From IMG/VR virus record IMGVR_UViG_3300046476_000409, positions 1 through 51,000 of that record: a stretch of 51,000 nucleotides of DNA; one strand, 5' to 3'. This stretch comes from a virus. The notes below the pieces were generated by a model. It did not search any database. It had not been told where the DNA came from and saw nothing but the letters and a program-made list of their open reading frames with translations. Numbering within the stretch: the first letter of the stretch is position 1; each line of letters opens with the position of its first letter. Positions 15,520-46,901 of this stretch are shown in pieces. Made by a program: the position numbers and the translations under genes.

Positions 15520-18500
15520 ATGCCCACCAATTGGACGGATCTCGAGCCGATAGTTGAGGACCAGCCCAAAACGGAGACAAACTGGGCGGACTTCGAACCG
15601 ATTTACCAGCCTCGCGAGGAGATCGCGGCGGCCGTGCCTGCCTGGATGAAGCCGGCACCGGCGGCGAGCGCACTCGAAGGCGTTTCCGCTACTCCCTCCG
15701 GCCTGCCTGCCCTGCCTGACTCTGATTTGAGCGCGGCGGCCCTCCAAACGATCCCGCGACCCGAGGCCACGATCGGAGCGCCTACGCCGGTTGACGTTGA
15801 GGGCATTGTGCGCGGCACCGCAGCACCTGGGGCCGGAGAGCGGCTCGATAAACGCCGGCAATTCGAAACGATCAAGGCGGATCTCGGATACAAGAACGTA
15901 CCGGACCAAGAATTTTTCACCGAAAATCCGGAGCTCAAAGCGAGATGGGGCGGACTTAGCTCAACGGATATGCCCGTGGGCCGATTGACGGCCGCAGACG
16001 TTCAAAACGTACTGCAGGACGCTCGCAACGGAGTGCCAGACTTCCTAAAGCCCCTGGCGGATAAAGTCACCAAGCAGCTTTCCGGGCTCACGGCCGGGAC
16101 ACAAAACGCAGTGGCCGACTTCGCCGATTTCATGACCAGTGCGCCTGGCATCATGACGGCATTGACCGGAGGCGTCGCCGCCGGCGCCGGCGGAGCGGGG
16201 TTGACTGGGATTGAGTCCGCCATACACCGCACGCTTGCCATGGGCTTTGGCGCAGATATGGCCCGCACCTCGCCCGAACAGCTTTCCGCGATTGTGGATG
16301 CAGCCAAGCGCGGGGACACGGCGGAGGCCACGCGGGCGACCCTGGGCGCACTAATGACCCTGGGAGTTGTGGCCGGAGGAGTAAAGGCGGCTCGAGGGGG
16401 CGCTTTCGAGCTCACGCAATATCCCGACCTACGGCCGCCAGCGGAGGATTTCCAAGGGCCGCAAAGAGGGATCCTTGGCCGCGATATGCCGCAACAGCCT
16501 TTCGGCCGTGGCGTGGTTACGTCCGCAGGAGCGGACCTGGAAGGGGAGCCGCGCACGCCGGACCAGATCGCGGCGGACGCTACAGCGGCCATGCTCGAGG
16601 CCAGAGGCCCGGAAGATGCCCTAGCGAAACAGACGGCGGCCGCCTCGCTCCTGGCGGAGCAGTCCAGGCGCGAACGAATTACCAGGGACCAGGAAGCCGC
16701 GAGGGCAGCCGCGAAGGCAGCCCGGCCGGTTGTCCCGGAGGGCGGCGAAACTCCGCCGGCGACGATTGCGGACCAGGCCCTACCAACCGATCTCAAAACC
16801 TTTGAAGATTTTGCGGCCGAACTGTCACGCCGCGGCACCGGTAATGAAACGATCAACGGGATCCGCGCCCTGTTCCCCGAACAGCGTTTGAGCCGCGAGG
16901 CGGCCCGGTCTTTGGGCAAGGCCGCATTCGGCGACGATTGGAACCCTCCGGGTGCTGGTGAGGCACCGGAAGGGCCCACCGCTCCACCGTCCGGACCGGC
17001 ACAGCCCGGCGGCGGAGCGGCACCAGCCGCGCCAGAGGAGGCCGGGACGCTCCTGGGGATGCCCCTGGAGTACTGGAAGAAGCTGAAACAGATGCCCGCC
17101 GGCCCAAGCCGCGCACGCCTGGCCAAGAGCCTTGGAGTGGAGGACACCCCGAGCGCGATCCGGGCGATGCTGGACAAGCGGATCGCGGAGATTGAGGCGA
17201 AAGCCGCCAAACCCGCAACGGAACCGGCCAAAGCTGAAACGAAACCAGGCGAACCTGCAACACCGGCCGAGCCCACCATTGAGAGCGTAAGCGGTACCAG
17301 CCCGGCGGAATTCTTCGACCTCTCCGCCGAATGGACTAAGGGCGGAATGGCCGGCACCGGCAAGGGCCCGCAGCTTAGAGCGGAGGCGGCAGCCAGAGCC
17401 AACCCGGACCTCGCCGCCTGGCAGAAGGCCTATGACGATGCGGCCGCAGAGGCGAAGCGGATCCGGGATGAGATCAAGGCCGACCCGAGCAAGCTTGCAG
17501 AGCGCCAGAAAGAAATGATGGGTGCGGCGCAAAAAGCGCAGTTTTTCAGCGAGGGGATCAAGGACATTAAGAAGGCGCAGGAAGCCAGCGCAGCCCTGGC
17601 GGCCAAGTCCGATACGGACATAAACGCCGAGCTCAAGAAAAAGCTGGCCGCGACCCTGGGCAAGAAACCAGGCCAGAAACTACCGCAGGCCGGCGAGCCG
17701 CTCTTGGACGTGCCGGCGACCCCGCTTTCCCCAATCGCGGAGCGCACGCGGATCCAGCGAGCCCTGGCTGAGCTAGAAGTCGTTGACCGGCGGGGAGAGC
17801 CGCAGCCCAAAGACAAGGAAGAAAATACCACCACCGAAATTGGAGGGCTCCGCCTCCGGCTCAAAGTTGTTGAGCGGGCCATGACCAAGGGGACCAGCGT
17901 TGAGAAGGAATGGGCGGAGGAAATGAGCGGCGTGCTGCATGACGGGCTCGACCCGCTCACGCAGACGATAATCAATATCAAGCACCTCGCGGACAAGGCC
18001 AAGACCCCGATCCCGCAGTCAAAGCTGGATGAGTGGCAATCTGAGGCGGATTTTATCATGCAGCGGTTGGAGTTTGACGGGGACAAAACGGACGCAACTC
18101 AGAAACTCCGTGACCTCAGCAGTTCAATAAGGGAGGAGGCCGGCGACTGGGAGGAGGGAGAACCGATCAGACCGCAAACGCCCGCCGTAGTGCGCGACCA
18201 GGGCCGGATCGATTGGGACAACCCGCAAGAGATTTCGGACGCGCTACAGAAATTGCACACCGAATACGACCAGAAGATCGCAGCCTGGAAGGCCGCCGGC
18301 AGCAAACTTTTCCTGGACCAGGTAGAGCCGGACGTTGAGCGGGCAATGAAGCTCATGCAGGGCCGGATCGATGAGTTGGGCGACAAGGGCAAGAGCGAGG
18401 ACGATCTCGCCAGCGAAGAAGCGGACCGCAGGGCAGCGGACGAGGAGCAGATCACGCGCTGGAAGTCCGCGCAAATAGTACTTGAGGCCAGACTCCAAGC

Positions 18501-21500
18501 ATCAAAAGAGGCGCTCAAAAAATTAAGGGACCAGGGCCGGCCGTACAGCGATCCTATGGTTCAACAGTTCTCAAAGAGTATTGAGAAGAAGGAGCAGGGG
18601 ATCGCCCGACTCAAAGCCAATATTGAGAAAGGACCAAATGCCTTACGTAAGCCGGGCTCAACGGACGTTCCTCCGGAAGAACCACCCGGAGATAGCGGCG
18701 AGGTGGGAGGCGGAGCACCCAAACCAAAACCTCAGCCGCCTACCCCTCCACAAGGGGGACAAGCGAAGCCGCCGGACGTTCCGCCGAAAAAGCAGCCATG
18801 GGAAATGACCCAAAAGGAATTTTCCTCAGATCCTCGAACAAAGGCGGCTCATAAGGCTTACCCGGATAAGTCACTCGCGGCCGTCCATCGCACGTATGTT
18901 GAAAAAGCGATCGCGGCAGGCAAGACCGTGCCTCCGGAAGTCCTCGAGGATTACCCGGACTTGAAGCCCAAAGCGCCGACCGAATTCCCCAAGCATCCCG
19001 ACTTGCCGGACAAGGCCAAGGGCGAGGGCGGAAACATTTTTAAAATCTACGGGGATGCCGTCGCCAAATGGGAAAAGGCCGTCGCTGAATGGCTCAAGAC
19101 CAAGCCCGAAAATAAGCCGATCGTTTGGGAGCAGGCCAACGGAAACGTCTTTGCCCTGACCAAAAACATTGGCGGGGATAACCCCTGGCGCGTGACCTCC
19201 TTTGTGCCCAACAAGGACGGCACCGCGCTCATGCCCTGGGGGCACCGGGAGTACAAGACCCGCGAGGCCGCCATGATCGAGGAGGCCCAAAACCCGACGA
19301 AGTTTCATGACTCCATGCCCAAGCGGGTAATGGATGAGAAGGAGATCCAGGGTTACAAGACCATGGATGAAGTCCCCGACAAGTCCGCGCTCACTTGGTA
19401 CACCGTCAAGGGCGGGAAAGAGGGGATCCGACGGCTCACCGAGCGGCTCCGGGGGATCACCTACATGCAGGACTTTGTTAAGGACTCCGTAACGGAGGAG
19501 GGCAAAGTCGCTTTCATCAAACCGGTCGCGGAGAAAGACCTCGAATACTTGGGCCTGGAAAAGGAGAAGGAGAAGGGCAAGGCGCAGGTTGGGGACACGA
19601 TCACCTTTACGCCGGAGGACAAAAAGCAGACCCCGACCACGGGCCAAGTCTCGGAAGTTATCCACAACACGGAGGGGCAGGTTGGCTACCAGATAATTTC
19701 GCCTCTGCCTGGGCAGCCCGGCCGGACGGTCCGGGTATGGGACCGCGACGGCACGATCAGCAAGGCGGCCGAAAAGTCCGTTGAGGAAATGCTCACGGCG
19801 CCCGTGGTGAACACCGTAGAGGCCCGCGACCGGCTCAAGGCGATCGATCGCCGGCAAGCCGAGCTCCGGGACGAAAAGAAAAAGCTCGAGGACCAGATCA
19901 AGGAGGTTGAGAAAGTCATAATGACGACTCGCGGCCGCCGGTACATGCGCGGCGGCAGCAGCAGGATTAAGGCGAGCGCACCCAAATCCCAAGTAGCCAA
20001 GTACCGCGACCTACAGAAGGAATCCTACGAGATCGAAAAGCAGTTGCGGGCCTTGGACGATGCCGCGAAGTCCGATCGCCAACTCCTGGACGATAACGCG
20101 GACGCGGCGATCATTAACGACCCCAAGCAACCGCTCCTCCGCCGGATCGATCGGAAGATCCGGAGTATGCCCAAGGATCCTCCGCCGGGATTGGTTGCGG
20201 CCCGGGATGCTGAACGCGCCCGCCTCATTCGCGAGAAGTATCCGGACGTTACAGAGGATGAAATAAAACGCATGGGCCCCAACGTGGATCTCGCCATGTA
20301 CCACGCCCGGGATCTCAAAGACCTTTGGAACCAGTACGAAATGGGAGGCAACCCGACTCCTCACAGCCTGCGACGTGACGCACTCCATGCCGCCTTGAAC
20401 GCGCCGGACGTGCCAAAGCATCTATTCCCGGAGGAGCTCACCAATGAGCTCATGAAATACGGCGCCGGCGATCGGGTTTACGGCCGGCAATATCCGGAGA
20501 CTGAGAAGCTCACGCCTCAAGGCTTGTTCAACCTCACCAAGAAGATCCGGGACACCAGCAAGCGCATTCACGCTGAGGAGGCCGCCAAAGTCGAAGCGGC
20601 GAAAAAGGAGACCGCAGAGCGCGAGGCCGCAGAGGAGAAGCTACTTGGCGAGGCGCAAGACGTTGCGGACTCGCTTCCCAAAACCGGCCGGCCGGGAGCT
20701 CCATCGGCCGAGACCGTAAATGCGGATTTGGTAAGCCGGATCAAGGGCTCGATTGACGACTTGCTTAAGAGCAACCCCGTGAAGCTCACCAATCGCGGCA
20801 CCACGGACGGCATTACGGACTACATAGCGGAAGGCGACGAATCGGCCGCCGCCATGGGCACAATTGAGCGAAAGCAATTGAAGAAGGGGGAATCATTCGA
20901 AGTCAACGCCTGGCCGCTCAACAACAAAGACCTAAAGATCAAGGCAACCGTCCCGACGCTCGAGGAGGCCGAATGGCTCATTAAGGCAATGGCCGCCAGC
21001 GGTAAGGGCAAGGCCGTTATTGGCGTGCCTGGCGATGGGGTGTTTCGATTGCTCCGCTACGGTCCGACCTTGCTCAAAGTTTGGCACGGAGCTCGCGGGC
21101 TCGAGACCAGCGGCGGCGACAAAACGACGCCATACAAAACGCAGGGCGGCGCGGAGGCGCCCGTAGAGAAGATCACGACGATCGCGGACTGGAACAAGGC
21201 CAAGGAGTACCACGGCCTGGAACCAGGCGACAAAATTTCCACTTGGTCTCCGGCATTGCTCGACCTGGCCAAACGGGTTAATCCCAAAAACCCGGAGGCC
21301 GTTGACGTGCGGGACGTTGAGCTCAAAATCAAAAATAAAGAGAAGATCCCGCCGGCTCCGGATATTTCCGTAGGACCAGGCGCCGCGAGCCCGAGCGACT
21401 TCCCGAAAGACTCTTTCGTCGCCCAAATGACCAAGTACCTCAAGGCCGGCCGCAAAGACTTTGGGCCGGTCTCTCCCAAGGTGACTCTCGCGCAGCGGAT

Positions 21501-23967
21501 CCGAAACGCGCTAGGCTTCGCGGACCGTATCTCGAAAGGGAAGTCCGCCGTCTGGAATGGGCTCGCTCGAACCCGGGCCGCCTCCGCGACCATGCTCGAC
21601 AATTATCTCCACCAGGCGCCCTGGCGCGACTTTGACGCCTCGCTTGGCCGTTGGGACGGAGCGGACCAGCAATCCTCATTCGAGATCCGCGAGTGGGTCA
21701 AAGAGATTAACAAGAATTTCCCCAAGGACCGGCAGGAGGCCCTTACCAACTGGATCCAGGCGGACGGCGATCCCGCGCTACTCCAACACCGGGCGGACGA
21801 GCTCCGCCGGCGAGGCTTCAATAAGCTGGCTGACGGTTATGAGCGGGCGCTCGATCTGAATGATGAGGAGAAAACCTGGGCACGGCAGATCCAGATTTAC
21901 CTGGATGAGCGGCTCGAGGAGGGAATGAATGCCGGCCTAATAAAGCAAGGGGTAGAGGACTACATAACGCAGATTTGGAACCGCGATAACCCGACCGCAA
22001 CCAAGCTAAGATCGGAGTTTGGAAATGTGCTCAACCCGGATTTCCGCTTTGCGCGGCAACGCGTTTTCAGCAGCTACTTTGAGGGCGAAATGGCGGGCTT
22101 CGAACCGAAAAACAAATCAGTTGGCTACCTGATCAGCACCTACGACCAGGCTTTCAACCGGTCGCTTTCCGCACGGGCCTTTATCAAAGAGCTTCACGAA
22201 GGCCGGGCCGCGGACGGCAAGCCGCTTGTCATGACCACCGGCAAGACGATCCCGATCATCACGGGCCAGCAGCCGCCGGAGGCCTACTTGATCAAGCCGC
22301 ACGTCGCACCGGAGGGCGCCGTAGCGGCGGACGGCCGGCCGTATCGCGTGATTGACCATTGGGCGCTCCGGGATTGGAAATGGGCCCTGGAAGTGCCGCC
22401 GGAAGTCAATCCGCCACAACACCAATTGGCGCGACTGGGCGACCTCACCACGGATATTACTGAGGGCATTCCCGGCGCTCCCGTCTTTGTCCAGGGAGAC
22501 ATGGTTGTCCATCCGGACATTTACAACCACCTCCGCAACGTGCTCACCAAGTCACGCTTGCAGGAATACGGGATCACTAAGGCCGCGCTCAAGCTCTCCG
22601 CCTTTGCCAAACAGACCAAGCTTTCGCTCTCGGTATTCCACCTGGACCAGGAGGGGTTGCATGGCTTCTTTCACCGGATCAATCCGGCGAACACCACCAA
22701 GATCGACTTTGCTGATCCCAAACAATGGGGACTGGTCCGTCACGGGCTCATGGTTTCCGATCCTCGTTTCCAGGAGCTTTTCAGCGAAGGGCTCTCCGGC
22801 GGCGGTTTGGTTGGGAAGATCCCCGGCCTGGGACATACACAAGTCTGGTTCAACGATTTCCTTTTCCGGGACTACATTCCGCGCCTCAAAATGTCGATGG
22901 CCCTCGACGCGCTCGAACGCAATCGCAAGACCTATGCGAAGGAGATCGCGGACGGCCGGATCAGCGACGACCAGATCCAGGCCTTGACCGCTCGCGAGGC
23001 CAACGCGGCTTTTGGTGAGCTCAATTACCGCCAGATGGGCCGCAACCCAACGCTCCAAGATTTCCTCCGGCTCTCGCTCCTGGCTCCTGACTTTCTCGAG
23101 GCCCGCTCCCGATTTGTGGGGCAGGCCCTCAAGCCCTACGGCCGCGAGCAACAGGTTGCCCTGGCGCTCATGGGCGCGACTCTCTACGTAGGCGCACGGA
23201 TAGCCAACCAGATGCTCGACGGAGACCCGCACTGGAATAAGCCGTTCAGTGTTATCTACAAGGATCGCGAGTACCGGCTCCGGACCGTCCTGGGCGACGT
23301 GGCGCACCTTTGGACTGACCCGCGCACATTCTTTTACAACCGCCTTTCCCCCATCACCCGCGCGGCCACAGAGGTTATCACCAGGCGCGACGATCGCGGA
23401 ATCAAGCGCACTTCCATACAGCAGTTAGAGGATCTCACGCAATGGCTTGTGCCGATCCCCTTCCAGCGATGGAAAGAGGGCGCCGTGCAATCCGTCCTGG
23501 GGTCCGCCGGCGCCGGCTCCGCGCCCTTCACGCCGCGCAAGCAGGTCCAGGATATGGCCCGCAACTTCATGGCCAAATCTGCCAACCCGCAGATCCAGAA
23601 AGAGTACCAGCGGCGGGAAACGCAGATTTTTGGCGAGTCCATTTACAAGCCGCTCCGGGCCGCGATTGAGCGCAACGATATGCAGAGCGCGGCGAACGAG
23701 GTTCGCAATTTGGTCCAGAACGAGCCCAACCGGGAGGCTAAGCTCAAGCGGCTCCATGAGATTTTGAACGCGTTTAACCCGACCAGCGTTAGCGGGATCA
23801 AACCACTGGCAACCCATAACCGAGTGATCGAGAAGCTCTTTATTCAGTCCCTGGACGACCGGGGCCGCCAGACCTACAAGAACGCACTCCGCCAGCAGGC
23901 GATCGAATACAGGCGCGTCCGGCAGGCCATGGGGTTAGACAGGACGGCGGCGACGCCTAGCCCGTAG
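15520..23967 (+). CDS. Giant internal (ejected) virion protein, 2815 aa
   Basis: 2815 residues, by far the largest gene. The N-terminus has two near-repeats, NWTDLEPI (4-11) and NWADFEPI (21-28), as in many phage ejection proteins. Hydrophobic Gly/Ala helices near residues 207-230 and 272-292 (GALMTLGVVAGGV), and near 2545 (ALMGATLYVGARI), suggest membrane insertion. The middle is charged, helical and Pro/Gly-rich; the last 700 residues are a well-folded helical region (DQEGLHGFFHRINPAN, NAAFGELNYRQMGRNP). Such proteins are packed in the capsid and form or pass a channel into the host. I see no polymerase or lytic-transglycosylase motif. A separate small gene is nested at 18638-18808. Confidence 0.75.
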   Translation: MPTNWTDLEPIVEDQPKTETNWADFEPIYQPREEIAAAVPAWMKPAPAASALEGVSATPSGLPALPDSDLSAAALQTIPRPEATIGAPTPVDVEGIVRGTAAPGAGERLDKRRQFETIKADLGYKNVPDQEFFTENPELKARWGGLSSTDMPVGRLTAADVQNVLQDARNGVPDFLKPLADKVTKQLSGLTAGTQNAVADFADFMTSAPGIMTALTGGVAAGAGGAGLTGIESAIHRTLAMGFGADMARTSPEQLSAIVDAAKRGDTAEATRATLGALMTLGVVAGGVKAARGGAFELTQYPDLRPPAEDFQGPQRGILGRDMPQQPFGRGVVTSAGADLEGEPRTPDQIAADATAAMLEARGPEDALAKQTAAASLLAEQSRRERITRDQEAARAAAKAARPVVPEGGETPPATIADQALPTDLKTFEDFAAELSRRGTGNETINGIRALFPEQRLSREAARSLGKAAFGDDWNPPGAGEAPEGPTAPPSGPAQPGGGAAPAAPEEAGTLLGMPLEYWKKLKQMPAGPSRARLAKSLGVEDTPSAIRAMLDKRIAEIEAKAAKPATEPAKAETKPGEPATPAEPTIESVSGTSPAEFFDLSAEWTKGGMAGTGKGPQLRAEAAARANPDLAAWQKAYDDAAAEAKRIRDEIKADPSKLAERQKEMMGAAQKAQFFSEGIKDIKKAQEASAALAAKSDTDINAELKKKLAATLGKKPGQKLPQAGEPLLDVPATPLSPIAERTRIQRALAELEVVDRRGEPQPKDKEENTTTEIGGLRLRLKVVERAMTKGTSVEKEWAEEMSGVLHDGLDPLTQTIINIKHLADKAKTPIPQSKLDEWQSEADFIMQRLEFDGDKTDATQKLRDLSSSIREEAGDWEEGEPIRPQTPAVVRDQGRIDWDNPQEISDALQKLHTEYDQKIAAWKAAGSKLFLDQVEPDVERAMKLMQGRIDELGDKGKSEDDLASEEADRRAADEEQITRWKSAQIVLEARLQASKEALKKLRDQGRPYSDPMVQQFSKSIEKKEQGIARLKANIEKGPNALRKPGSTDVPPEEPPGDSGEVGGGAPKPKPQPPTPPQGGQAKPPDVPPKKQPWEMTQKEFSSDPRTKAAHKAYPDKSLAAVHRTYVEKAIAAGKTVPPEVLEDYPDLKPKAPTEFPKHPDLPDKAKGEGGNIFKIYGDAVAKWEKAVAEWLKTKPENKPIVWEQANGNVFALTKNIGGDNPWRVTSFVPNKDGTALMPWGHREYKTREAAMIEEAQNPTKFHDSMPKRVMDEKEIQGYKTMDEVPDKSALTWYTVKGGKEGIRRLTERLRGITYMQDFVKDSVTEEGKVAFIKPVAEKDLEYLGLEKEKEKGKAQVGDTITFTPEDKKQTPTTGQVSEVIHNTEGQVGYQIISPLPGQPGRTVRVWDRDGTISKAAEKSVEEMLTAPVVNTVEARDRLKAIDRRQAELRDEKKKLEDQIKEVEKVIMTTRGRRYMRGGSSRIKASAPKSQVAKYRDLQKESYEIEKQLRALDDAAKSDRQLLDDNADAAIINDPKQPLLRRIDRKIRSMPKDPPPGLVAARDAERARLIREKYPDVTEDEIKRMGPNVDLAMYHARDLKDLWNQYEMGGNPTPHSLRRDALHAALNAPDVPKHLFPEELTNELMKYGAGDRVYGRQYPETEKLTPQGLFNLTKKIRDTSKRIHAEEAAKVEAAKKETAEREAAEEKLLGEAQDVADSLPKTGRPGAPSAETVNADLVSRIKGSIDDLLKSNPVKLTNRGTTDGITDYIAEGDESAAAMGTIERKQLKKGESFEVNAWPLNNKDLKIKATVPTLEEAEWLIKAMAASGKGKAVIGVPGDGVFRLLRYGPTLLKVWHGARGLETSGGDKTTPYKTQGGAEAPVEKITTIADWNKAKEYHGLEPGDKISTWSPALLDLAKRVNPKNPEAVDVRDVELKIKNKEKIPPAPDISVGPGAASPSDFPKDSFVAQMTKYLKAGRKDFGPVSPKVTLAQRIRNALGFADRISKGKSAVWNGLARTRAASATMLDNYLHQAPWRDFDASLGRWDGADQQSSFEIREWVKEINKNFPKDRQEALTNWIQADGDPALLQHRADELRRRGFNKLADGYERALDLNDEEKTWARQIQIYLDERLEEGMNAGLIKQGVEDYITQIWNRDNPTATKLRSEFGNVLNPDFRFARQRVFSSYFEGEMAGFEPKNKSVGYLISTYDQAFNRSLSARAFIKELHEGRAADGKPLVMTTGKTIPIITGQQPPEAYLIKPHVAPEGAVAADGRPYRVIDHWALRDWKWALEVPPEVNPPQHQLARLGDLTTDITEGIPGAPVFVQGDMVVHPDIYNHLRNVLTKSRLQEYGITKAALKLSAFAKQTKLSLSVFHLDQEGLHGFFHRINPANTTKIDFADPKQWGLVRHGLMVSDPRFQELFSEGLSGGGLVGKIPGLGHTQVWFNDFLFRDYIPRLKMSMALDALERNRKTYAKEIADGRISDDQIQALTAREANAAFGELNYRQMGRNPTLQDFLRLSLLAPDFLEARSRFVGQALKPYGREQQVALALMGATLYVGARIANQMLDGDPHWNKPFSVIYKDREYRLRTVLGDVAHLWTDPRTFFYNRLSPITRAATEVITRRDDRGIKRTSIQQLEDLTQWLVPIPFQRWKEGAVQSVLGSAGAGSAPFTPRKQVQDMARNFMAKSANPQIQKEYQRRETQIFGESIYKPLRAAIERNDMQSAANEVRNLVQNEPNREAKLKRLHEILNAFNPTSVSGIKPLATHNRVIEKLFIQSLDDRGRQTYKNALRQQAIEYRRVRQAMGLDRTAATPSP
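18638..18808 (+). CDS. Nested 56-aa phage protein in another frame of the giant gene
   Basis: Frame +1 relative to the giant gene. ATG 18638 has GAAAGGA five bases upstream. The product starts MPYVSRAQRTFLRKNHPEIA and continues ARWEAEHPNQN, then a basic tail. This MPxxSxAQRxFLxxxHPEIAxRW opening is a widespread short phage-protein pattern whose members are usually stand-alone genes. The host frame here is a Pro/Gly/Lys linker (EEPPGDSGEVGGG), the kind of sequence expected where one frame is constrained by another. Translation is unproven, but a family-like N-terminus arising by chance with a correct ribosome site is unlikely. Confidence 0.55.
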   Translation: MPYVSRAQRTFLRKNHPEIAARWEAEHPNQNLSRLPLHKGDKRSRRTFRRKSSHGK

Positions 23968-38818: not shown

Positions 38819-39027
38819 CCCCGGAGCGTGGCGAGCGTGACGTTAATTTCCATGTCCAGTTTTCGCATAATGCACCGTTGGAGCGCGATTTTTGGATTGA
38901 GCTTGCGCGGCTTGGGCCCTCGCGGCCCGGGTTTTGGCCCGAAAATTCGCGGCCGGCCGTCCAGGCCGATCCGCATGGCCTTTCGCAAGGCTTGCCCTTC
39001 CCGCCGCTTAAGCACACTGGGGCTCAC
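38815..39027 (-). CDS. Small basic protein (70 aa)
   Basis: Basic Pro/Gly-rich (RPRIFGPKPGPRGPKPRKLNP) then a helix. It overlaps both neighbours (ATGA at 39024 and 38815). Possible DNA-binding accessory of the nuclease/ATPase; no family recognised. Confidence 0.5.
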   Translation of the reverse strand: MSPSVLKRREGQALRKAMRIGLDGRPRIFGPKPGPRGPKPRKLNPKIALQRCIMRKLDMEINVTLATLRG

Positions 39028-40439
39028 GCTTCACCGGGCATTGTTTGGGTTTCGATTTCCGGGATTGTGGCCCGGCCGTCCTCCATAATGACGCTGGCCG
39101 GCGCGTCTGTGCGCGAGGTCTCGAGCCAAACTTGCGCTTTGGCGTCCGCCGCCATCTTCGCGACCTGGGCAAGGCTCTCCGGATCGAGATCCGAGCCCTG
39201 CCGGATCAAAAGGATCGGCAATTTCTTGTTGAGCGCGAGCCCGATCGCGACCGATACCCGCAATTGCTGCGAAGTGGAGGCCTGTTCGAAGGGAAGGCCC
39301 TCCCAAGTGACGTTGCGGTCCTCGTCCAGCCCCAAACCAGGCACGGGATAAGCCGCATTGTCCAGTTTCTTGCGCTTTTCACGCTCAAAGGCGTCAATCT
39401 GCTTAGTCATGGCCTCCGAGCTCGCCTGGAGCTCTTTAAACGTTTTGCGAGCCTCCGCCTTGGCCGCGTTTTCGCGAATTTTCGCGTTGTTGCGTTCCAA
39501 TTCGCTTAGCTTCGTCCGGAATTGAGAGAGATCGGTGTCCTTCAACTCGCCGAGCTTGGCCTCGTCCAACGTCATTTGTTTGTAAAGGGCCTGGATCAGT
39601 GCCTCGCGGTCCTTTACGTGCCTCTTTGCCTTCTCAAGTTCGCCCTCTAGCCGCTGTACCTCGTCGTCCCACTCCCTTTTTGCGGTCTGGACGTTGGCGA
39701 TCTTGTCTTTGAGCTCTACCAACTCAATTCGAGCTCGCTGGTTTTTGGCGTTTTGGGTGCTGGCCTTCTCCTGCTCCTCGAGGATCGAGGCCGTTGACTG
39801 CTCCTCACCGGTTACGCCGGTATGTTCGGGCATCGTGACCAGGCGGGCCTGGGCGCGTTCAACCTTGCGATTGTTCTCCGTGCGCTCATCGAACACCTTT
39901 TTCTGACCGGCATCGATCGCCGTGAAGTCCAGGCCGCAAAGCTCCCGCAAAGTCTTGCTCTGTTCGGGCGCCTTAGCCTTAGCGAAGCTCAAAGGGTCAA
40001 AGGAGAGCCGGCCGATCAGTTTGTCCAGGAGGGTCTGAGGCTTGTCGAAGGGCACTCCGTCCTTATTGGTGACAACCAGGTTGGTACCGCCGCCCTTGGT
40101 GAAGGTGCGCTTGACGATAATGTCACCGAGATCCACCACGATCCGGCCTTTCTCCTCGCCCTTGCGGATTGGCTTCTTGCTGATCGAGTCCGCGCCACCG
40201 AGCGCCATTTCAATACAGTTGAGCACCGAGCTCTTGCCCTGCCCATTCTTGCCGCCGATCACTACCATTGGATCCTCGCCTGGCTGGATCTCCACGGCTT
40301 GAAGCCGCATGACGTTTTCAGCCGCGAACGCTACGATCCGGCCGTGCTGTTGCTGTTCTTCGAATTGAGGTTGAGTTTGCATAATGTAGTCAATGACACC
40401 TTTGGGCCTACCGATCCCCATGGGATCCCAATTCCTCAC
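39024..40439 (-). CDS. RecF/Rad50-like ATPase (471 aa)
   Basis: Start GTG 40439, with AGGAG eight bases upstream and overlapping the exonuclease stop (GTGA); an ATG at 40382 is possible but lacks a site. Walker A is GGKNGQGKSS (about 62-71). A coiled-coil region (about 220-330) follows, and the C-terminus has LPILLIRQGSDLDPESL, a Walker B-like strand. This is the SMC/RecF/Rad50 layout: DNA-end handling or recombination mediator with the adjacent YqaJ exonuclease. Good support from motifs and context. Confidence 0.75.
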   Translation of the reverse strand: MRNWDPMGIGRPKGVIDYIMQTQPQFEEQQQHGRIVAFAAENVMRLQAVEIQPGEDPMVVIGGKNGQGKSSVLNCIEMALGGADSISKKPIRKGEEKGRIVVDLGDIIVKRTFTKGGGTNLVVTNKDGVPFDKPQTLLDKLIGRLSFDPLSFAKAKAPEQSKTLRELCGLDFTAIDAGQKKVFDERTENNRKVERAQARLVTMPEHTGVTGEEQSTASILEEQEKASTQNAKNQRARIELVELKDKIANVQTAKREWDDEVQRLEGELEKAKRHVKDREALIQALYKQMTLDEAKLGELKDTDLSQFRTKLSELERNNAKIRENAAKAEARKTFKELQASSEAMTKQIDAFEREKRKKLDNAAYPVPGLGLDEDRNVTWEGLPFEQASTSQQLRVSVAIGLALNKKLPILLIRQGSDLDPESLAQVAKMAADAKAQVWLETSRTDAPASVIMEDGRATIPEIETQTMPGEA

Positions 40440-41188
40440 GGGGTAACTCCTGCGTTAGCGTCCGCCTGGCGCTCGAGCCCCTTTTGCCAGTCCGCATAGC
40501 TCTGCTTCGTCGTGTCCACCCGCACCCGCGGCGGCGGCGGGCCTCCGTTAAGATCGCAGAGCCGCACCCATCCGGCCTCAAACTTTTCTCGGAATAACTC
40601 AGTCGCCACCTCGATCGCTTCGATTACGGACGGGTCGCGCTGAACCTCCACGAAAAGATCCGGCAAGTCTTTGCAGAAAGAGAAAAAGTGCCACTTGGCC
40701 GCGCCAGTGACGAACATCGAAAACTGTACCTGCAGTACGTATTCTTCCGGCAGGACTCCGGCCAGCAAGTAGCCAATATGTGTACTCGCCATCGGACATT
40801 TGAGCTCGAGCCCGGCATCGCCCTCAGCGTCCGGCGGCACGTCCAGGCGCAACCAGCCATCAGGGGAGCACCAAAGACCGGTTTCAGAATCAATGCCAGC
40901 GATCCGCTCGACCGGCCGATCTTGAAGGGCAGAGTACACGGAGAACGCCTGGGGCTCTGCAAACACTCCCTGATCGGTTTGGCGATTTCCTCCAAACTGC
41001 TCCTCGGGGATACCGCGCCACTTTTCAGCGAGCTTCAAGTGGAGATAGGAGTTGGGCATTTCGGTGCTCCATTTCCGGAGCGCGAATTTGTCCGTTATGA
41101 GCTTCCCGATCCCGCTGGCCGTGACCTTGCCGGCCCGCATCTGGAACCAGTCCCAAGACCGCTGTTCAATGTCCCTAATGATCCTCAT
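40436..41188 (-). CDS. YqaJ-like (lambda exonuclease family) recombinase nuclease
   Basis: 250 residues. RSWDWFQMRAGKVTASGIGKL is the YqaJ-domain opening; D110 in CSPDGWL and E128/K130 in GLELKCPM form the PD-(D/E)XK catalytic core. These exonucleases resect double strand ends to leave 3' tails for an annealing protein; an ERF-like gene two genes upstream is the expected partner. Both ends overlap neighbours (GTGA, ATGA). Strong call. Confidence 0.85.
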   Translation of the reverse strand: MRIIRDIEQRSWDWFQMRAGKVTASGIGKLITDKFALRKWSTEMPNSYLHLKLAEKWRGIPEEQFGGNRQTDQGVFAEPQAFSVYSALQDRPVERIAGIDSETGLWCSPDGWLRLDVPPDAEGDAGLELKCPMASTHIGYLLAGVLPEEYVLQVQFSMFVTGAAKWHFFSFCKDLPDLFVEVQRDPSVIEAIEVATELFREKFEAGWVRLCDLNGGPPPPRVRVDTTKQSYADWQKGLERQADANAGVTP

Positions 41189-41466
41189 ACTTCGATAGAA
41201 TATGGATGATGCTTTTGGGTTAAAAGGTCAGGGGTCCAGTCGAAAACAAAAAGGAACTGGAAGCAAGGCTCTCCAACTGTCTGCCACGGCAAACGGTGGG
41301 CACGAACTTGCCAGAATGGGGCCGGTTCGATTTTTTCCTCAATCCACTCACTGAGCGACATCGGAGATTTGAACCATCCCAAAAGCTCCCAGTCTGTTAC
41401 GTCCCAATCATGCCGAACTCTCCGGGAAAATACCGGCACTGGGTCAGAGTTATCGTCCGCTCTCAT
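41185..41466 (-). CDS. Hypothetical phage protein (93 aa)
   Basis: Trp/Phe-rich small protein (DWDVTDWELLGWFK, PCFQFLFVFDWTPDLL). Overlaps neighbours by ATGA inside the recombination operon. No family recognised; perhaps an accessory of the nuclease pair. Confidence 0.5.
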   Translation of the reverse strand: MRADDNSDPVPVFSRRVRHDWDVTDWELLGWFKSPMSLSEWIEEKIEPAPFWQVRAHRLPWQTVGEPCFQFLFVFDWTPDLLTQKHHPYSIEV

Positions 41467-42260
41467 GCGCCCTTTCGCTTAACGCTCCGCTCCTTGGCCG
41501 CGATCACGCGGTCCAGCACGGGCAGATCGATCACGCGGATTTTCGCGAAGCTGTCAACGCCGGCAATGTCCAGAAATGCCTTTTGATTGTCGCTGAGGTT
41601 CGCCCATCGCCGGAAAAGCTCCTCCGCTTTATCGGCTGTGACCGTCTCGCCCGTCCCGACCTGGGCCGCGTCCTGCGTGCTATCAACGACGATGTTCAGC
41701 ACGTCCAGGAGGAGGCGGCGCTTGGCCCGGCTGTCCGCCTGTTCATCCAGTACGGGAGCCTGGGCCCCGGCCGGGGTGCCTGGCGCATTGGTGCCAACCC
41801 GGATCGTCCACTGGAATTGGCGCTTGTGCCCGTTGAGGTGTTGCAGCGTGGCGATCTTCGTTACCATGCCCTCCGCGTTGCGCTGGTCCCATTGCAGCGT
41901 AAAATGATTGCGACGGAGCGGCCCCTCGACTTCCTTCCAAATGTCCAGGAAAGGCGCGTACTTAAACTTTCCGTCAACGTCTTTGAGCGCCACGACTCGC
42001 CGGCATTCGTCCTGCAACTTGAAAAGCGCGTCTGCATAGTCGCGTTCAGCGTCGCGGTCCTGCTGGCGCTCGACCATGGCAACCATCTTCTCGATCGACT
42101 CCGCCGGAATGTTGCGCTCGACTCCCGACCGGATGATCGCCATGAGGCTAGGGACGGTCAACTCCTCGGAGCGAGGCCCGAGCTCTCGCGGCCTGAATGG
42201 TTCTAGCGCCCCGGTTTGGGGCAGGTTGATTTGTTCGGCCGTTTTTGGTTCTTCGTTCAT
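41463..42260 (-). CDS. ERF-family single-strand annealing protein
   Basis: ATG 42260 (MNEEPKTAEQ) overlaps the upstream stop; residues before it in frame are not protein-like. Residues about 75-120 include YADALFKLQDECRRV, GKFKYAPFLDIW and KEVEGPLRRNHFTLQWD, matching ERF recombinase structure; the C-terminus is helical. It anneals complementary strands after YqaJ resection. Size 265, normal for the family. Confidence 0.8.
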   Translation of the reverse strand: MNEEPKTAEQINLPQTGALEPFRPRELGPRSEELTVPSLMAIIRSGVERNIPAESIEKMVAMVERQQDRDAERDYADALFKLQDECRRVVALKDVDGKFKYAPFLDIWKEVEGPLRRNHFTLQWDQRNAEGMVTKIATLQHLNGHKRQFQWTIRVGTNAPGTPAGAQAPVLDEQADSRAKRRLLLDVLNIVVDSTQDAAQVGTGETVTADKAEELFRRWANLSDNQKAFLDIAGVDSFAKIRVIDLPVLDRVIAAKERSVKRKGA

Positions 42261-42487
42261 GATAACAACAAAATTTCTTCGTACTCGAAAACTCCAATCG
42301 TGGAGCTCCCGAGACAGGTTTGCCCGTCCTCGCCGCGCACCTGGAAAACGATTTCCGGACTTTCCGAGTCCGGCCGGAGCTTGATCACTTTGCAGCGGCC
42401 GCCCGGCCATGCCCCGAAGGGGTGAGTCAGAACCGAGCGGCCGATCAATTTCTCGCCGTATTCCTCAAGCGCCTTCCGTGCGTTCAT
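42257..42487 (-). CDS. Hypothetical phage protein (76 aa)
   Basis: ATG 42487 is chosen over longer starts because upstream residues are non-protein-like. Beta-rich (RCKVIKLRPDSESPEIVFQV). Coupled to neighbours. No family recognised. Confidence 0.5.
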   Translation of the reverse strand: MNARKALEEYGEKLIGRSVLTHPFGAWPGGRCKVIKLRPDSESPEIVFQVRGEDGQTCLGSSTIGVFEYEEILLLS

Positions 42488-45582: not shown

Positions 45583-45809
45583 ATGAGCCCATTGACGACC
45601 GCTGGCCCACCGAGGACCGGATCCAAAAGACCTATGCGCCCGGCCTGGTGCTGGCCAAGGACGGCGGCCTGCACTTTGACCCGCTCCAATACCTGCCTTT
45701 CCTGGGCCTGCCCGTGACGCTGGAAACGTGCATGTGGGCCGAGGGTCTCGTTAAGGAGATCATGCGCCAGCAAGGGCCGCAGATCCCGATCGTTGACGTG
45801 TTCCCATGA
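45579..45809 (+). CDS. Small phage protein ending PIVDVFP (76 aa)
   Basis: ATG 45579 overlaps the previous stop. The C-terminal PIVDVFP is shared with the next gene. No family recognised. Confidence 0.5.
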   Translation: MNEPIDDRWPTEDRIQKTYAPGLVLAKDGGLHFDPLQYLPFLGLPVTLETCMWAEGLVKEIMRQQGPQIPIVDVFP

Positions 45810-45988
45810 GAAACATAATTCAGATCGCGATCGCGAGCGTTCAAGAGCCGCGCGGCTTTGTCCAGATGGCGCTGTGCGACGACGGGAGCACCTGGCATCG
45901 CTACGAGGGCCGGGAGTGGGAGATCGATCCAGTCGTTCCCCGGGACGATTGCAATGACAAGTCTCCGATCGTGGACGTATTCCCATGA
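45806..45988 (+). CDS. Small phage protein ending PIVDVFP (60 aa)
   Basis: Starts MRNIIQIAIASVQEPRGFVQ. It ends with the same PIVDVFP, coded by CCGATCGTGGACGTATTCCC here and a nearly identical stretch 179 bp before. The ATGA overlap also recurs. Function unknown. Confidence 0.5.
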   Translation: MRNIIQIAIASVQEPRGFVQMALCDDGSTWHRYEGREWEIDPVVPRDDCNDKSPIVDVFP

Positions 45989-46038
45989 GGATTAAGGCTT
46001 GCCCGGCGGCGCCCAACGATCCACAACCAATAGCGTGA
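45985..46038 (+). CDS. Possible 17-residue leader peptide
   Basis: ATGA overlap with the previous gene; MRIKACPAAPNDPQPIA then TGA at 46036-46038. The stop falls inside the first strand of the stem 46035-46045. A leader-peptide role is inferred; it could also be a remnant of a duplicated gene start. Confidence 0.3.
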   Translation: MRIKACPAAPNDPQPIA

Positions 46039-46113
46039 AACCAGAAACGAGATTTTGGCCGCGCTCCTGGCTCTCCGCAGGGGGATCTGGTTTCACAAAC
46101 TGCCGGGAGCGCG
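46035..46113 (+). promoter_or_regulatory. Interleaved inverted repeats: pseudoknot or switching hairpins
   Basis: Stem 1: GTGAAACCAGA (46035-46045) with TCTGGTTTCAC (46086-46096), 11 perfect bp. Stem 2: CGCGCTCCTGGC (46060-46071) with GCCGGGAGCGCG (46102-46113), 12 bp with one G-U. Strands are interleaved 1-2-1'-2'. It ends 17 bases before the replication gene ATG. Confidence 0.65.
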
Positions 46114-46130
46114 ACCAAGCTCTCTAGTTT

Positions 46131-46901
46131 ATGCCTTACGTGAAGCTCGATTGCGGGATCCTTGACTCCTCCATCTGGCCGGACAAGCCCGCCCGCGACC
46201 TGTTCATAACCGCCCTGCTCATGGCCCGCCCTTACCGCCTGGCCCAACCCCGCAAAGAGCTCGAAACTGACTCCCTGAAAGAGACCGGTTTTGAGGTGCC
46301 GGCCGGGAGCTACGGACTCATCGAAGCGGCCGGACCAGCCATCGTCAGCCGAGCCAAGATGGACGAAAAAGAGGGGCTCGAAGCCCTAAAACGCCTCGCC
46401 GCACCCGACATTTACTCCCGAACCCCGAAATTTGACGGCAAAAGAATGATTCGCGTTCAAGGAGGCTTCATCGTCCTAAATTATTTTGACTATCGCGACA
46501 AGGACCACACAAACGCCGAGAGACAAAGGACTTACCGCAGTAAGAAGTCCGTAACGCCGTTACGTAACGATGTAACGCGTTATGTAACACATGCAGATGC
46601 AGATGCAGATGCAGATAAGACCCCCCCTCCCCCCTTGGCGGATATCAATTGCGTTTCGCCGGAAAAAAATTTCGCCGCACGTTTAGCCGGCGGAAGATCC
46701 CGCGCCTCAAACTCCGTCGCCACCGAAATCCGCAACCGCGAAATCCTCAAACGCGTTGAAGCTCGCCTCTCCTTCATCGCCCCCTTGCTCTCGCCAGATT
46801 CCAACCTCTCACCAGACCGCCTGGACGCCCTCAAATCTGAACGCGCCAAACTCCTCGATCACAAAAAATCCCTCCTCGCCTCCCTTGACTACCCCTGCTG
46901 A
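46131..46901 (+). CDS. Replication initiator / helicase-loader-like protein
   Basis: 256 residues. Starts MPYVKLDCGILDSSIWPDKP, a common phage replication-protein N-terminus. Residues 1-130 look winged-helix-like (VQGGFIVLNYFDYRDKDHTN). Then a basic linker with ADADADAD, and a helical tail. In lambda-like phages the replication O protein also has an origin inside its gene; repeated GTAACG near 46551-46588 may be the same here. No helicase or polymerase motif. Function inferred from family-like opening and position. Confidence 0.6.
   Translation: MPYVKLDCGILDSSIWPDKPARDLFITALLMARPYRLAQPRKELETDSLKETGFEVPAGSYGLIEAAGPAIVSRAKMDEKEGLEALKRLAAPDIYSRTPKFDGKRMIRVQGGFIVLNYFDYRDKDHTNAERQRTYRSKKSVTPLRNDVTRYVTHADADADADKTPPPPLADINCVSPEKNFAARLAGGRSRASNSVATEIRNREILKRVEARLSFIAPLLSPDSNLSPDRLDALKSERAKLLDHKKSLLASLDYPC
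46551..46588. repeat. GTAAC iteron-like cluster inside replication gene
   Basis: GTAAC units at 46551, 46564, 46572 and 46584, and the inverse CGTTAC at 46558, including the perfect 12-bp palindrome CGTTACGTAACG (46558-46569). Candidate origin binding sites. Confidence 0.45.
46591..46616 (+). repeat. ATGCAG hexanucleotide repeat
   Basis: ATGCAG repeated four times then AT, coding HADADADAD in the linker of the replication protein. Confidence 0.7.

Follow-up and report, generated by a model that had tools for sequence, protein, structure and literature searches.

The question raised by this locus is what two long, interleaved inverted repeats do immediately ahead of a viral gene. In the window, by which we mean the whole 51,000-nt stretch that was analysed (positions 1 to 51,000 of IMG/VR record IMGVR_UViG_3300046476_000409), these repeats were originally predicted to form either a pseudoknot or two mutually exclusive hairpins in a structured RNA leader, with a short upstream ORF acting as a leader-peptide switch and DNA-level use as an origin or recombination site as a further option. 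Direct reading bears out the predicted coordinates, pair counts and spacing. Stem 1 pairs GTGAAACCAGA (46035-46045) with TCTGGTTTCAC (46086-46096) in 11 perfect pairs, and the inner helix of stem 2 pairs CGCGCTCCTGGC (46060-46071) with GCCGGGAGCGCG (46102-46113) in 12 pairs, one of them G-U; the strand order is 1-2-1'-2', so the stems are interleaved. Stem 2 runs further than the predicted 12 bp: past a C/A mismatch (46059/46114), TTGG (46055-46058) pairs with CCAA (46115-46118), and the outermost pairs join GAGA to TCTC. A small hairpin, P3, lies between strands 2 and 1' and pairs TCTCC (46072-46076) with GGGGA (46081-46085). P1' and P2' (the 3' strands of stems 1 and 2) are 5 nt apart, and 46114-46130, which reads ACCAAGCTCTCTAGTTT, covers the 17 nt from 46113 to the ATG at 46131, or 12 nt when counted from the full 3' end of P2 (46118). 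The features are collected in Table 1.

Table 1. Coordinates of the element and adjoining reading frames in the window.
Feature	Coordinates	Strand	Remark
P1 5' strand, family core GTGAAACC	46035..46042	+	window extends to 46045; 8-mer common to all pattern-found members
P1 3' strand GGTTTCAC	46089..46096	+	window extension to 46086
P2 5' strand: TTGG, mismatched C 46059, CGCGCTCCTGGC	46055..46071	+	
P2 3' strand: GCCGGGAGCGCG, mismatched A 46114, CCAA	46102..46118	+	
P2 outer extension, 5' side, GAGA	46049..46052	+	
P2 outer extension, 3' side, TCTC	46121..46124	+	
P3 hairpin TCTCC-GCAG-GGGGA, between P2 5' strand and P1'	46072..46085	+	short hairpin here in most members
17-codon ORF MRIKACPAAPNDPQPIA, probably fortuitous	45985..46038	+	
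Downstream gene, 256 aa, initiator-like by appearance only	46131..46901	+	

Both interleaved stems are genuine and far exceed what chance would produce. Among 100 dinucleotide shuffles of 1-kb blocks, none contained an 11-bp stem together with an interleaved stem 2 scoring at least 40, against a score of 45 in the window; the shuffles held 2.76 eleven-bp stems each, and 0.02 each with an interleaved score of at least 30. The folded strand has a z score of -3.0.

Using a gapped pattern of the P1 strands to search 2.9 million viral contigs, we recovered about a dozen further independent elements. Their common order is P1 (GUGAAACC), P2, the small hairpin P3, P1' (GGUUUCAC), P2' and the start codon, and neither the strand order nor the orientation towards the following gene varies between members. 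P1 is a fixed 8-bp helix, which in most members sits in the 10-nt loop of an additional hairpin, P0, and is closed by a 2-nt bridge within that loop. A short hairpin occupies the P3 place in most members (partly from folding by hand), many have P1' directly adjoining P2' (0-2 nt), and P2' ends 10-19 nt from the start codon in those with a clear downstream gene. Set A, in which the loop is AAGTGAAACC and the P0 hairpin is clear, comprises L024, L031, L045, L027, L046, L044 (identical to L048), L032, L025, L026 and L028, the last with two copies. Set B, with the loop GCGTGAAACC, comprises L083, with a P0 of 5-6 bp and an additional hairpin separating P1' from P2'; eight similar contigs (L062, L065, L071, L072, L073, L081, L089 and L090) with a P0 of only 3 bp; and, lacking P0, the window and possibly L008. 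In a control scan of about 130 GTGAAACC/GGTTTCAC pairs, which include reverse-strand readings and chance matches, clear members have P2 scores of 23.5-45 and nearly all other pairs score 25 or less, the main exceptions being L077, where a repetitive GTGAAACC array scores 28.5, and a single reverse-strand reading in L085 (25.0). The window has the highest score of all (45); L008, at only 18.5, is thus a weak candidate, and matches in L007 and L029 were dropped because their P2 or P0 was unconvincing.

Covariation argues that these helices are maintained as pairs. The sequences of P0 and P2 vary between elements while pairing is kept: 226 of 228 P2 positions pair with their own strand, compared with about 52% when strands are mixed among members (0 of 5000 permutations), and the corresponding figures for P0 are 61 of 65 and 46%. 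As the helices were delimited by hand, the own-strand figures are upper estimates, and the contrast with the permutations is the informative part. Compensatory changes are also found within a single phage, between the two L028 copies. Covariance-model searches in other phages recovered further members: a model built on seven members (R1) finds L025 at 2e-8, L028 at 7e-6 and 3e-4 and L026 at 4e-4, and a second (R2) finds L062, L089, L071 and L081 at 4e-4 to 1e-3, with the conserved P1 contributing part of these scores. The invariance of P1, which was the search key, is built into the searches apart from one paralogue. This paralogue came from a scan of the fetched phage records that required no P1 sequence and returned the known elements, a few chance structures and a second element in phage G011 (contig L103, plus-strand coordinates 18531-18700, on the minus strand). 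Its P1 reads GTAAAGTA/TACTTTAC, it has a 9-bp P0, and its inner P2 pairs, CCTTGG/CCAAGG, are shared with the first element of the same phage (the L025 element). By this one sequence example, P1 pairing is retained despite a changed P1 sequence. A search for further copies of the paralogue P1 gave at least 120 matches, and a generic scan showed P0 and P2 in none of the matches listed. The gene that follows this element is, by appearance, a Rha/KilAC-type phage regulator. Together, the arrangement in unrelated phages, the covarying P0 and P2 and the swapped P1 in one paralogue support the structured RNA leader of the original prediction; conserved architecture, covariation, orientation and position are established by sequence comparison.

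How, then, does the window copy relate to this group? Its P1 begins with the group 8-mer in an unshifted register, a GC precedes it as it does in set B, and the P1 partner falls within the group range, 28-72 nt downstream. P2 is interleaved with P1 and scores 45 against a group threshold of about 23, the order including P3 is the same, the gene starts at the group distance, and the C/A mismatch of P2 recurs in L024, L031, L045 and L027. We found no stem flanking P1 in either the window or L008, R1 finds no match in the window, and R2, as a model of the P0-bearing members, barely scores it at 9.8 bits, with an E value of 0.016 that refers to 211 bases only. Lacking P0, the window copy is therefore filed as a divergent variant rather than a strict group member, and its link to the group rests on P1 sequence, topology, spacing and position. 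Were its stem unrelated, an accidental match of the 8-mer to an RNA group of the same topology would be expected roughly once in thousands. On these grounds the window fold appears to belong to, or closely resemble, a previously uncatalogued RNA group of many unrelated phages.

Relatives outside these contigs were also sought. One contig, L002, is near-identical to the window (99.98%), and BLAST of the element or its region against phages and plasmids gave no match. R1, run with strict filters on a sample of 684 bacterial genomes (395 Bacteroidota and 289 Verrucomicrobiota) that held no positive control genome, gave none either. An ATTTTG motif common to the window and L008, when scanned in bacterial genomes, led to GTAGGGCGGGTGAAACCCGCC repeats of Proteobacteria and to chance matches, which were judged unrelated. 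The repeats in question, GTAGGGCGGGTGAAACCCGCC...GGCGGGTTTCACCCGCCCTAC inverted repeats in L013, L014, L015, L019 and L020, occur more than once per genome and resemble miniature mobile elements.

The group is absent from Rfam 15, in which the element matches no family (L083 gives only matches far below gathering scores, mostly to microRNA models), and a full-text literature search, mostly of papers outside subscription, returned no related description. HDV-like ribozymes share the strand order P1-P2-P3-P1'-P2', and L083 even adds a hairpin where P4 would be; this assignment was rejected, as there is no Rfam match, a hairpin loop encloses P1 in the group, and most members lack a joining strand before P2' that could hold the catalytic C. 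The pistol ribozyme likewise pairs a hairpin loop to a strand within another helix. In pistol, the loop partner precedes P3. It follows P3 in the present group, whose P2 is far longer, and pistol also gives no Rfam match. The nearest parallels in mode of action would be leader pseudoknots of phages, the T4 gene 32 operator among them, although by its anatomy the element has the defining features of neither that operator nor put. The gene 32 operator of T4 and RB69 is a simple pseudoknot of about 28 nt that binds gp32 and has UUAAA/UAAA repeats behind it (PMC535899). It too forms part of a phage replication gene leader and stands upstream of the ribosome-binding region, but the present group has a P2 of 12-17 bp plus P0 and P3, and no UUAAA/UAAA repeats, the hallmark of the T4 operator, occur between P2 and the ATG in the window. 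The put RNA of HK022 consists of two stem-loops that bind RNA polymerase (PMC9378689). It is likewise a structured phage RNA of about 70-110 nt at the start of an early transcript, up to twice per genome; the present stems, in contrast, interleave and P2 abuts the start codon, and the put hallmark, a pair of successive stem-loops immediately behind an early promoter, is absent at the window element.

Many copies of the element lie inside replication modules, several directly behind promoter-like sequence. The next or flanking genes include D5/DUF3987-like primase-helicases (by appearance), a Lin1244-type initiation protein, HNH followed by VapE/primase, a primosomal-like protein, DUF2786, a Dda/PIF1-like helicase followed by Prim-Pol, a DNA polymerase upstream of HNH and a helicase upstream of an EndoVII-like gene; the downstream genes thus do not share a single function. 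The L062-type phages have the element behind the large terminase gene, and the gene after the element varies by contig. In L062, L065, L071, L073, L081 and L089 the elements are near-identical and the genes up to the conserved structural genes differ, so that, judged by gene content, this slot looks like an exchangeable cargo slot. For the 256-aa gene of the window we found no match in Pfam or PDB and no significant one in PHROG, and IMG/VR offers just three distant homologues; these (L003-L005) align from residue 1, supporting the start at 46131, and have unrelated DNA with no element upstream. Elsewhere in the window, a 2815-aa open reading frame (15520-23967) has no significant Pfam match, and a recombination cluster on the minus strand (39024-42410; AAA_23/SbcC-like, YqaJ-like nuclease and Erf-like annealing protein) is on the strand opposite to that of the gene cluster of the element.

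We consider it probable that the element is a cis-acting mRNA leader pseudoknot of a phage early or replication gene, most likely acting at translation initiation. The mRNA would fold with P1 pairing across the loop that P2 closes; as P1' runs nearly straight into P2', P1 and P2 could stack as one rod, along which an A-rich linker may lie and which in most relatives would be capped on P1 by the 5' hairpin P0. In many members P1' and P2' almost touch, P1 has a constant length of 8 bp and a 2-nt bridge lies in the P0 loop, all of which fits such a coaxial rod, and for the same reasons a true pseudoknot is favoured over the two exclusive hairpins that had been put forward alongside it, although alternation between the stems would also be compatible with their co-conservation. 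The end of P2, 10-19 nt from the start codon, would lie at the edge of the ribosome footprint, and either the fold itself or the binding of a phage or host factor could then set the translation level of the next gene. We infer the action at translation initiation, the repression by folding and any ligand or binding protein.

The originally predicted leader-peptide switch, in which a ribosome finishing the 17-codon ORF would mask stem 1 and so leave stem 2 free to form, fared less well than the structured leader itself. The ORF has the predicted length and its TGA (46036-46038) does fall inside strand 1; indeed the P1 5' strand starts GTGA or, in the paralogue, GTAA, which places a stop codon there in every case. 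A stop (TGA or TAA) at P1 positions 2-4 is thus kept even in the P1-swapped paralogue, and the start codon is unconserved group-wide. A minimal ATG-AAG-TGA frame ends in P1 in L024, L031, L045 and L046 (with a GTG start in L027). No ORF comparable to that of the window runs into P1 in L032, L025, L083, L089, L071 or L081, several members have no upstream ORF at all, and there is no room for one where the promoter adjoins P0; the common TTG candidate start of L026 and L028 falls within or close to the -35 region of the promoter presumed there. Furthermore, the window ATG lies within a 25-bp duplication of the end of the preceding gene. This direct repeat (45786-45810 and 45965-45989; 92%) closes two small genes in a row, at whose ends it encodes PIVDVFP-stop overlapped by an ATGA. 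An unconserved ORF whose ATG belongs to a duplicated gene end makes the switch very unlikely. Read-through of the ORF stop was also considered, as the frame continues without a stop for 34 codons and closes at a TGA (46141-46143) that overlaps the next gene, and was dismissed as unremarkable in GC-rich DNA.

Control of transcription stays alive through the U-run and promoter position of set A, and as an alternative to translational control we regard it as rather unlikely. Here RNA polymerase, as it enters an early operon, would read the element as a put-like antiterminator or an attenuator, with P2 and a U-run as terminator and P1/P0 deciding its formation. In set A members of the Bacteroidota type, a label we take from the apparent promoter type, a promoter-like TAnnTTTG (read by eye) stands just before P0, and a U-run directly follows P2 in seven (L024, L031, L045, L027, L046, L044 and L032), so that P2 could double as a terminator hairpin. 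L026 and L028 have a sigma-70-like promoter with a 17-nt spacer before the element and a GGAG ribosome site after it (read by eye), and L028 carries its two copies behind the same promoter-like sequence, recalling the two put elements near the early promoters of HK022 (PMC9378689). However, the U-run is absent in the window, L026, L028, the L062-type phages and L025, put has two stem-loops and no pseudoknot, and no sigma-70-like promoter is recognisable in the window between 44500 and 47000. Translation-initiation control is favoured since P2 lies at the ribosome-footprint edge in nearly all members, with or without a U-run. That P0 starts a few nt from the predicted transcript start in the L024-type phages and in L026/L028 would suit a capped rod at the mRNA 5' end that blocks ribonucleases and stabilises the transcript; such protection would not require the start codon to lie at a set, short distance, and the window copy lies within a gene cluster, which makes it improbable. 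Least probable is a DNA-level site (an origin, recombination site or cassette boundary) with the inverted repeats as DNA hairpins. The association with replication modules and the different genes behind the L062-type element would suit it, but the P2 helices contain 20 G-U pairs (a biased count, as G-U was allowed and A-C disallowed when helices were chosen, and one that excludes the recurrent junction C/A mismatch), the orientation and spacing to the start codon are fixed, and several copies start at promoter-like sequence.

A broader form of the leader-pseudoknot reading, which we offer tentatively, is that the P0-P1-P2 double pseudoknot rod defines a new phage RNA class, a portable expression switch placed before replication or accessory genes in phages of several host kinds, which might sense a metabolite or bind the ribosome or RNA polymerase, and of which one phage may carry orthogonal P1 versions. 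Few structured phage leader RNAs are known, and the present element occurs in many unrelated viruses, often beside replication genes. The covarying P0 and P2 and the P1-swapped paralogue lend themselves to simple mutational tests, and if the element is a switch, it would provide a testable handle on the timing of replication in such phages.
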